Assembly (NCBI RefSeq): GCF_000328705.1
Contig: NC_019673.1
Coordinates: 7,885,501 to 7,949,500 of the forward strand
Source: Saccharothrix espanaensis DSM 44229
GTDB taxonomy: Bacteria > Actinomycetota > Actinomycetes > Mycobacteriales > Pseudonocardiaceae
Direction of reading: 5' to 3'
Length of the DNA: 64,000 nucleotides
A program made the translations under genes and the position numbers. Below, piece after piece: positions 42,777 through 45,653 of this stretch. The notes under the pieces are model-generated. The model did not search any database and was not told the origin of the DNA. It was given only the letters and a program-made list of their open reading frames with translations. Every line of letters starts with the position of its first letter. The first letter of the stretch is position 1.

Positions 42777-45653
42777 CTAGGCCTTCTCCAGGTATTCCGC
42801 CCGTTCCTCGTCGAGCAGGCCGGCCACCAGCGACGCCAGCCCCGGGTGGGCGGCCAGCTCCGGGTCGGCGTCCACGACCTGGGTCGCGACGATCCGGGCT
42901 TCGGCGATCACGTCCTCGTCGCGCAGCAGCGACAACATCTTCAGGCCCGACCGGGTGCCGGACTGGGCGGCGCCCAGGATGTCGCCCTCGCGGCGCAGCT
43001 CCAGGTCGAGCTGGGCGAGTTCGAACCCGTCCAGGGTGGATTCCACGGCGCGCAGCCGGGCCATCGTGGCGGTCCCATCGGGCATCTCGGTGACCAGCAG
43101 GCACAGGCCGGGCGCGCTGCCCCGGCCGACCCGGCCGCGCAGCTGGTGCAGCTGGCTGACGCCGAAGCGGTCGGCGTCCATGATCACCATGACGGTGGCG
43201 TTCGGGACGTTCACGCCGACCTCGACCACCGTGGTGGCGACCAGGACCTGCACCTCGTTGCCCGCGAAGGCCCGCATCACGGCGTCCTTCTCGTCCGGTG
43301 GCATCCGGCCGTGCAGGATGTCGACGCGCAGCCCCTGCAACGGGCCTTCGGCCAGGCGTTGGGCCACGTCCACGACGGCCAGCGGCGGTCGGCGGTCGGA
43401 CGTGTCGTCCTTGGGCGGCTCGTCGCCGGACGAGCCCTCGGACTCGCCGTCGCCGATGCGCGGGCAGACCACGTACACCTGGTGGCCGTTGCCGACCTCT
43501 TCGCGGATGCGCTGCCAGGCCCGGTCCAGCCACGCCGGCTTCTCCGCCATCGGCACCACGGAGGTGCTGATCGGCGAGCGGCCTTGCGGCAGCTCGCGCA
43601 GCGCGGAGACCTCCAAGTCGCCGTAGACCGTCATCGCGACCGTGCGCGGGATCGGGGTCGCGGTCATCACCAGCACGTGCGGTGTGGAGCCGCCGGCGCG
43701 GCCGCTGAGGGCCGCCCGCTGCTCGACGCCGAACCGGTGCTGCTCGTCCACCACGACCAGGCCCAGGTCGTGGAACTCGACCTTGTCCTGGATGAGGGCG
43801 TGCGTCCCGACGACCACGCCGGCCTCGCCGGTGACGATCTCCAGCAGGGCCTTCTTGCGCTGCGCGGTCGGCATCGAGCCGGTCAGCAGGGTGACCCGGG
43901 TGGCGTGCTCGGCCCCGCCCAGCTCGCCCGCCTGGCCCAGGTCGCCGAGCAGGTCGCGCAGCGACCGGGCGTGCTGCGCGGCCAGCACCTCGGTGGGCGC
44001 GAGCATGGCGGCCTGCCGGCCCGCGTCCACGACCTGGAGCATCGCGCGCAGGGCGACCATCGTGTTGTGGGTGACGACGAAGTGGTCCGTCACGTAGAGC
44101 CGGGACGGGTGGGCGACGGAGATGCACTGGACCGGCTTCACGCCGACGAACTCGACCCGTTCGACGTACCGCACGGGCGGCGCGGTGCGGTCCAGCGCGT
44201 CCCGGAACGGCGGGAACTCCTCAGGCAGCCGCACGACGACCTCGTGCTGCTCGTAGCCGTAGCCCACCACGCCGGTGCCGCCCAGCGACTCGGCCAGCTC
44301 GCTGACGTAGTCGGCGAGGTTCTCGGACTCGGTGCGGAACACCACGTCCACCCCGTCGCACGCACCGCCGGTGCTGAGCAGCCCCTGCAGCAGCTCGTGC
44401 CGCTCCTTGACCGGGGCCAGCTCGACGCAGTCGACGTCCGGCGCGACGACCATCGGCAGCCGCCAGCGGGGCGCGCCGCCGTGGTTGCGCGGGTCGTCGC
44501 GCAGCAGGTCGTCGCGGATCTCGCGCAGGGTCCGCACCTCGCCGTCGTGGGTGGCCCACAGGTGTTCCAGGTCGCACTCGACGGACTTGCCGTCGGAGAG
44601 CACCACCCGGAACACCTCGCGCTCGCCCTGCGGGAAGACGCCGGTCACCTCGGTAGGGCTGCCGTCCTGGGTGATCACCTGGTCGCCGACCTGAAGGTCG
44701 CCCATGGCCACGAAGCCCTCGGGGGTGAGCACCAGGGCGTCCAGCGGCTGGGCCTTGCCGGAGCCGACCTCGCCCTGGAGCAGCCGGTTCATCGGCTGCT
44801 CGGCGGACAGGTCGGCGGAGATCCGCTCGCCGACCTCGCGCTGGCCGGCGGTGAGCTCGAAGGGCAGCCGCTCGTCGAAGGCGTCGGCGACCAGGCCCGG
44901 TCTGGGCGGACAGGCGGGGGCGGGGCGGGCGGTGGCGGAGCGGCGGCGCTGGGCCAGGGCGAGCTGCACGGCCATCGCCTCGTCCCACTTGAGCCGCTGC
45001 TGCGCGACGGTGATCGCGGCCCACCCGTCGGGCCGGTGGATGTCGCGCAGCGCCTTCTCCAGCGACACCAGGCCGCGCTCCTCGCGCAGGTCGGCGGGCA
45101 GCGGGTCCTCGGCCACGCCGTCCCACAGCGCGAGCACCTGCTCGACGCAGTTGGACACGTTCCACGACTGGATGCCCTGCGCCGCCGGGTAGACCGGGAT
45201 GAACGCGCCCGCGAACTTGGCGGCGCTCCCGTCGGTCTCGGCGTCGAGCACCTGGTAGTCGGGGTGGGCGAGCTGGAGCTTGCCGTTGAACATGCCGACC
45301 TTGCCGGCGAACATCGCCTCGCGGCCGGGCAGCAGCTCACGCTCGACGGCGCGCGACCCGCGCCCGAAGAACACCAGGTGCAGGTCGGACGAGCCGTCCG
45401 TGATCACCGCCTCCAGCAGTTCGCCGCTGCGGCTCTTCATCCGGCGCTGCCGGGCGCTCTTCACCCTGGCCTGGACCGTGGCGTGCTCGCCCAGCTCCAG
45501 GCCCTTGATCTCGGTGAGCTTGCCGCGTTCGTCGTAGCGGCGCGGGTAGTGCCGCAGCAGCTCGCCGACCGTGGTCAGTCCGAGACCGCTCTCCAGCGCG
45601 TCGGCGCTCTTCTTGCCGAGCACCGACACCAGCTTTTCGTCGAAGGTCGTCAT
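42777..45653 (-). CDS. recG: ATP-dependent DNA helicase RecG, intein-containing
   Basis: RecG remodels stalled forks and Holliday junctions. The 958-residue precursor contains an N-terminal wedge domain (OB fold, about 50-150), then the helicase domain interrupted at residues 301-530 by an intein inside Walker A (QGEVGSGK-T). Without it the protein is 728 residues, the normal RecG length. After the intein come TMVALRAMLQ, APTEVLAAQHA, DEQHRFGV (DExH), TATPIPRT, TTVVEVGVNVPNA and the RGRVGRG (motif VI). The precursor must splice to give an active ATPase site. ATG 45653 is the start. Adjacent genes follow the M. tuberculosis order recG then DAK. Confidence 0.95.
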   Translation of the reverse strand: MTTFDEKLVSVLGKKSADALESGLGLTTVGELLRHYPRRYDERGKLTEIKGLELGEHATVQARVKSARQRRMKSRSGELLEAVITDGSSDLHLVFFGRGSRAVERELLPGREAMFAGKVGMFNGKLQLAHPDYQVLDAETDGSAAKFAGAFIPVYPAAQGIQSWNVSNCVEQVLALWDGVAEDPLPADLREERGLVSLEKALRDIHRPDGWAAITVAQQRLKWDEAMAVQLALAQRRRSATARPAPACPPRPGLVADAFDERLPFELTAGQREVGERISADLSAEQPMNRLLQGEVGSGKAQPLDALVLTPEGFVAMGDLQVGDQVITQDGSPTEVTGVFPQGEREVFRVVLSDGKSVECDLEHLWATHDGEVRTLREIRDDLLRDDPRNHGGAPRWRLPMVVAPDVDCVELAPVKERHELLQGLLSTGGACDGVDVVFRTESENLADYVSELAESLGGTGVVGYGYEQHEVVVRLPEEFPPFRDALDRTAPPVRYVERVEFVGVKPVQCISVAHPSRLYVTDHFVVTHNTMVALRAMLQVVDAGRQAAMLAPTEVLAAQHARSLRDLLGDLGQAGELGGAEHATRVTLLTGSMPTAQRKKALLEIVTGEAGVVVGTHALIQDKVEFHDLGLVVVDEQHRFGVEQRAALSGRAGGSTPHVLVMTATPIPRTVAMTVYGDLEVSALRELPQGRSPISTSVVPMAEKPAWLDRAWQRIREEVGNGHQVYVVCPRIGDGESEGSSGDEPPKDDTSDRRPPLAVVDVAQRLAEGPLQGLRVDILHGRMPPDEKDAVMRAFAGNEVQVLVATTVVEVGVNVPNATVMVIMDADRFGVSQLHQLRGRVGRGSAPGLCLLVTEMPDGTATMARLRAVESTLDGFELAQLDLELRREGDILGAAQSGTRSGLKMLSLLRDEDVIAEARIVATQVVDADPELAAHPGLASLVAGLLDEERAEYLEKA
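44064..44753 (-). other. Class 3-like intein in RecG with degenerate homing endonuclease
   Basis: Residues 301-530 of the RecG precursor. It starts with Ala (not Cys/Ser) and ends with THN followed by extein Thr531. Block A is LDALVLTPEGFVAMGDLQVGDQV; a Trp in HLWATH (residue 366), Cys510 in PVQCISV and Thr528 in VVTHN fit the WCT triplet of class 3 inteins, where the internal Cys starts the reaction. Residues 421-430, LLQGLLSTGG, look like a LAGLIDADG motif with both Asp lost, so the endonuclease is probably dead. Length 230 exceeds a minimal intein (about 130-150). Confidence 0.88.

Follow-up and report, generated by a model that had tools for sequence, protein, structure and literature searches.

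Class 3 inteins have no nucleophile at residue 1 and are marked by Trp B:12, Cys F:4, and Thr G:5; His B:10 is required and the +1 residue is nearly always Ser or Thr (passages of PMC5222942 and PMC6195587). In the Mycobacterium smegmatis DnaB intein DnaBi1, a class 3 mini-intein located in the P-loop, the nucleophile is Cys118 (passages of PMC6195587). RecG is named among bacterial intein hosts in a table of a review (PMC5874633, in part). Within the literature passages covered, which came from open-licence papers, we found no description of where a RecG intein is inserted or which class it belongs to.

In the window, a 64,000-nucleotide stretch of the Saccharothrix espanaensis genome (a single contig of 9,360,653 bp), the recG precursor ORF occupies 42777..45653 on the minus strand, runs from an ATG start at 45653 to a stop at 42777, and encodes 958 aa. 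The NCBIfam model NF008167, with 1133.8 bits (cut-off 995), identified the product as RecG and matched it in two stretches. In the original prediction the Walker A motif was split between Lys300 and Thr531 by residues 301-530, and this was confirmed. The N-extein (44754..45653, minus strand; RecG residues 1-300) ends in QGEVGSGK, the first part of Walker A, and the C-extein (42777..44063, minus strand; residues 531-958 and the stop) starts with Thr+1, the Walker A Thr, in the sequence TMVALR. Between them lie 230 in-frame, stop-free codons (301-530) that run from AQPLDALVLTPEG to FVVTHN and correspond to the predicted class 3 mini-intein, Ala1 to Asn230 (44064..44753, minus strand). A RecG of normal length after removal of the insert had also been predicted; the joined exteins indeed make 728 aa, and the intein-free RecGs of the genus (n = 15) are 720-742 aa long.

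The class of the insert can be read from its splicing residues, all on the minus strand. Residue 1 is Ala (44751..44753) in this and in every other member of a set of 22 distinct RecG inteins, leaving no N-terminal nucleophile, and the block A features claimed originally did not hold up, since that residue is not Cys, Ser, or Thr. Block B contains His64-Leu65-Trp66 (44556..44564), in which His64 is His B:10 and forms a DxxH motif with Asp61, and Trp66 is Trp B:12 (position names follow passages of PMC5222942 and PMC6195587). Block G ends with Thr228-His229-Asn230 (44064..44072), that is, Thr G:5, the penultimate His, and the cyclising Asn, and is followed by Thr+1 (44061..44063; precursor Thr531), the predicted second branch point, which in the mature enzyme serves as the Walker A Thr. 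In block F, Cys210 (44124..44126) takes the Cys F:4 position as the predicted initiating nucleophile and is aligned with Cys118 of the 139-residue PDB chain 6bs8, which we take to be the M. smegmatis DnaBi1 entry, as the residue numbers agree. His64, Trp66, a Cys 20 residues ahead of the final Asn, and the THN end are found, together with Ala1, in 22/22 RecG inteins, and Thr+1 in all 10 carriers of the genus. The seven splicing positions all fall within the 59 of 230 columns that are invariant across the 22 inteins, a count that ignores relatedness. Among the seven mini-inteins alone, 163 of 230 columns are invariant and the catalytic positions are not unusually conserved (P 0.086), so that the conservation argument draws its strength from the wider set. 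A profile of 12 relatives matched the gp41-1 and DnaB inteins (6riz, 6bs8, and 6rix; E 4e-14 to 2e-13) over the splicing part and PI-SceI (E 2e-9) over the endonuclease part; the Pfam Hint_2 match to the 230-aa form was below the cut-off. By Ala1, the W66/C210/T228 triplet, His64, and Thr+1 the RecG insert of S. espanaensis is assigned to class 3, and with this signature splicing should start at the internal Cys210.

A class 3 mini-intein in the RecG P-loop, predicted to splice, is the best explanation of the locus, with a probability that we put at roughly 0.93. We infer splicing itself from the sequence, and the order of its steps by analogy to studied class 3 inteins. After translation of the 958-aa precursor and folding of the Hint domain, Cys210 (block F:4) would attack the Lys300-Ala301 peptide bond to give a branched thioester and the N-extein would be transferred to Thr+1. 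Cyclisation of Asn230, aided by His229, would then free the intein, and an acyl shift would give rise to the 728-aa RecG with Lys and Thr joined and GEVGSGKT restored. Because Lys300 and Thr531 are 230 residues apart in the precursor, the unspliced protein should not bind ATP normally and the helicase should depend on splicing. The mean extein dN/dS was 0.163 in the seven mini-intein carriers, compared with 0.145 for all 15 genomes without the intein and 0.128 when only the 11 nearer of these are counted; the value in the carriers is slightly raised, yet indicates purifying selection. The seven helicase motifs were found in all 25 RecGs of the genus after joining of the exteins, and no second full RecG match was seen in the S. 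espanaensis genome. On these three grounds (motifs, purifying selection, and the lack of a second full match) RecG is probably still used in the carriers.

Next we consider the spread of the insertion. A P-loop pattern search recovered RecG in 25/25 genomes of the genus, S. espanaensis included: 15 alleles are empty, seven hold a mini-intein (225-230 aa), and three (G064, G070, and G072) hold a full-length intein of 342 aa, with all 10 inserts sitting between identical Lys and Thr codons. Intein-free alleles, which the original prediction had proposed to seek in close relatives, are thus present. In the family, a RecG intein occurs in at least 16 of 390 genomes, namely 10 of the 25 Saccharothrix genomes and six of 24 Lentzea genomes. 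This search (E limit 1e-50) assigned 16 of 59 matching genomes to RecG; 15 of the host genes were translated, five of them from Lentzea genomes recognised by coordinates that coincide with those of named loci, and the sixth Lentzea genome (G238) was assigned by score and frame length. Fifty-two other family matches were obtained, and the 24 that were read were all PhoH genes. In one genus of the family (g30, G265-G326), none of the 62 genomes matches the pattern for the RecG P-loop, which 326 of the 328 others match. In the phylum sample, RecG is split at the P-loop by 228-343 aa in at least 8 of 298 genomes: S. espanaensis, one other genome (G402), and 6 of 16 genomes of a further genus (g53). 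The census counted genomes with a RecG match split into pieces at E <= 1e-30, and all 20 three-match genomes were inspected; 8/298 is a lower bound because the census would overlook a RecG intein whose N-terminal piece matches more weakly. In all seven other split RecGs of this sample the insert sits at the same codon as in S. espanaensis and has the class 3 residues. That codon is filled in the three congeners with full-length inteins, the five Lentzea genes read, the six genomes of g53, G402, and a RecG-like helicase of Rhodococcus plasmids. With at least 8/298 genomes in the phylum, at least 16/390 in the family, and 10/25 in the genus, the original view of RecG inteins as rare was too strong within their own phylum.

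The S. espanaensis intein does not contain an intact homing endonuclease. The first LAGLIDADG half is absent (gap at 44420/44421), and a remnant of the second half is found at intein residues 112-161 (44271..44420, minus strand), where the motif reads LLQGLLSTGG as compared with LLQGLLDTDG in intact relatives. Pfam LAGLIDADG_3 was below the cut-off in the two mini-inteins scanned, the S. espanaensis form included, and above it in 3/3 full-length RecG inteins scanned. Scored from letters picked by text pattern, both LAGLIDADG motifs are intact in 10 of the 22 distinct RecG inteins and damaged in 12, the latter being the seven mini-inteins, G064 and G070 (motif 1), Lentzea c012 (motif 2), L164, and L169. 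Since L164 (300 aa) and L169 (254 aa) cluster together (100/99) and away from the Saccharothrix mini-inteins, shrinkage probably happened at least twice. The retention of splicing residues while endonuclease motifs were lost points to selection on splicing. The mini-intein is less constrained than the host RecG (mean dN/dS 0.32 vs 0.16).

In the rpoB tree the seven mini-intein carriers form one clade (96/97) and the full-length carriers require at least two changes; in the RecG extein tree, support for the mini-intein clade is weaker (87/78). Synonymous divergences, simple Nei-Gojobori estimates on GC-rich DNA, were 0.32 for intein and 0.34 for extein in the mini-intein carriers (21 pairs), matching values as predicted by vertical inheritance. 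Intein divergence exceeds that of the host gene in the full-length carriers, at 0.38 vs 0.17 in three Saccharothrix pairs and 0.84 vs 0.27 in ten pairs from Lentzea, and this excess suggests that the inteins arrived separately. No co-conversion was seen around the site in Saccharothrix, where flank identity between full-length and empty alleles dips no further than it does between two empty alleles. The intein tree covers 10 of the 15 RecG inteins from Saccharothrix and Lentzea and 10 of the 24 PhoH inteins, and leaves aside the Phrappuccino match L159, in which no intein was located by script. Its 18 RecG inteins fall into a single group (92/98, not starred), separate from the PhoH inteins (100/100) and from five other class 3-type inteins. 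The origin we infer is one of repeated entry, deletion, and vertical descent: a homing intein of the LAGLIDADG type, with specificity for this site in RecG, would have invaded recG genes of the phylum on more than one occasion, its endonuclease would have been deleted in the ancestor of the seven Saccharothrix species, and the remnant would then have been passed on vertically.

The RecG-like helicase of Rhodococcus plasmids has RecG models as its top NCBIfam matches, all below their cut-offs, and its intein is class 3-type with both endonuclease motifs present. Among 67 plasmid records matched, three matched over the full helicase length and four more, at 91-96% identity, over 71%, which equals the extein share. 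One of the three full-length matches was read and is filled (L171); three of the four partial ones were read and are empty (L172, L173, and L174). On the 5' side, L171 is 84-91% identical to L172 and L173 within 400 bp of the site and 96-100% identical beyond; on the 3' side identity is 83-96% over 1.2 kb. The empty L172 and L173 are 95-100% identical to each other throughout, and the empty L174 is diverged everywhere and uninformative for this comparison. The tract around the site could reflect homing with co-conversion. Ordinary recombination with another RecG allele is a further possible source of the tract, and gene order downstream of the helicase also differs between filled and empty alleles, in keeping with that explanation. 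The plasmid homologue looks mobile.

The insert could in principle be a normal, lineage-specific RecG domain that is never removed, and it is inherited by seven species of one clade as such a domain would be. The Walker A Lys-Thr pair, however, is split by it, and it has a THN/T end. Chance or a normal domain is ruled out by the same site, with the same Lys and Thr codons, being empty in 15 of the 25 genus genomes, so that the 230 residues are not part of RecG in every relative; this reading is refuted, and its probability is close to nil. The same empty site supports the original identification of an intein in the Walker A loop. Initiation by another route, directly by Thr+1 (class 2) or by residue 1 (class 1), is highly improbable. 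Ala1 would be compatible with class 2 as well, but the W-C-T triplet together with Thr+1 marks class 3 (passages of PMC5222942), and among the solved structures matched over the splicing part is that of the DnaB intein, with its Cys118 aligned to Cys210. Class 1 is rejected by Ala1, as it needs Cys, Ser, or Thr at residue 1.

RecG is non-essential in E. coli, and the element might be a class 3 remnant that has lost the ability to splice, in strains where RecG is inactive and dispensable. Such a dead intein would be in line with the slightly higher extein dN/dS of mini-intein carriers and has a precedent in a pseudogene intein on record (title of PMC3196547); moreover, splicing is deduced from the letters of the gene. 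Against this stand the splicing residues, intact in 22/22 distinct RecG inteins while the endonuclease motifs decay, the seven helicase motifs retained in the exteins of 10/10 genus carriers, and the lack of stop codons in the inteins of these carriers. We regard the dead intein as improbable and retain the splicing class 3 mini-intein as the preferred reading. Precise loss of an intein is regarded as rare. This alone could account for the persistence of the mini-intein, and its retention as a conditional RecG switch, in which ATP binding would be improper until Cys210 is reduced and free, is a speculative addition that we consider unlikely. The switch would fit the presence of the mini-intein in all seven genomes of one clade with a non-working endonuclease yet intact splicing residues, and a second cysteine, Cys60, adjoins block B in 7/7 mini-inteins; but Cys60 lies off the DnaBi1 partner position and is missing from 7 of the 22 RecG inteins. 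If the switch were true, RecG would be kept off under oxidative or metal stress and released once the cell recovers, as proposed for the mycobacterial DnaBi1.

Other inteins were seen in the course of this work. A PhoH-like ATPase gene of S. espanaensis (1551120-1552196 of the contig) contains a full-length class 3-type intein of 359 aa (MRGR/AQPV...THN/T), and the PhoH site is filled in 24/24 such loci read from the family. In the type II topoisomerase genes of S. espanaensis (3541000-3552500) three apparent class 1-like inteins were read by eye. The A subunit holds two of them, and the B subunit, a 1163-aa ORF, holds one with an HNH-like motif; with these three, the genome appears to hold at least five inteins. 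The P-loop of an ATPase on contig CALMSM010000164.1, from a MAG labelled Candidatus Saccharibacteria, contains a class 3-type intein that includes a LAGLIDADG domain. On viral (IMG/VR) contigs, class 3-type inteins are located at GTGK/S and GYGK/T in terminase-like and DnaB-like proteins (L133 and L134; hosts named by eye). Two scans of viral contigs gave two distinct distant class 3-type relatives, in a terminase and a DnaB-like helicase (L135 repeats L133), and no RecG. Phage records matched (n = 347) were all below 60% identity, and none was annotated as RecG among the 40 of 347 matches listed.

The codon-precise class 3 RecG intein offers empty, full, and shrunken alleles within one genus, and the plasmid RecG-like helicase adds alleles with and without the intein, set apart by a recombination tract. 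With this three-state series and the plasmid alleles, the homing cycle (invasion, endonuclease decay, and fixation) becomes testable in soil bacteria, as does a possible control of repair helicases by P-loop inteins.

Compared with M. smegmatis DnaBi1 (passages of PMC6195587), the S. espanaensis RecG intein has in common the W/C/T triplet, the block B DxxH, Ala1, and the THN end; both are located in a P-loop ahead of a hydroxyl +1 residue and both are without a working endonuclease. They differ in host, RecG being a repair helicase and DnaB the replicative one, and in size, as the RecG form has 230 aa with half a LAGLIDADG domain remaining and DnaBi1 has 139 aa. Val47 of the RecG intein aligns with the DnaBi1 redox partner Cys48, whereas its Cys60 lies elsewhere. 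The PhoH class 3-type inteins share the AQP start, HLW, THN/T, the LAGLIDADG type, and the same genome, but form a separate clade (PhoH 100/100, RecG 92/98) in a different host protein and at a different site. The class 3-type inteins of phage terminases and helicases, such as L133 and L134, share the signature residues and P-loop sites. The catalogued RecG inteins have the same host protein, in a table line given without site, class, or organism (PMC5874633, in part). The S. espanaensis RecG intein thus adds to a host already named in a review and is of a known kind of element; unlike that table line, it is defined to the codon and the class.
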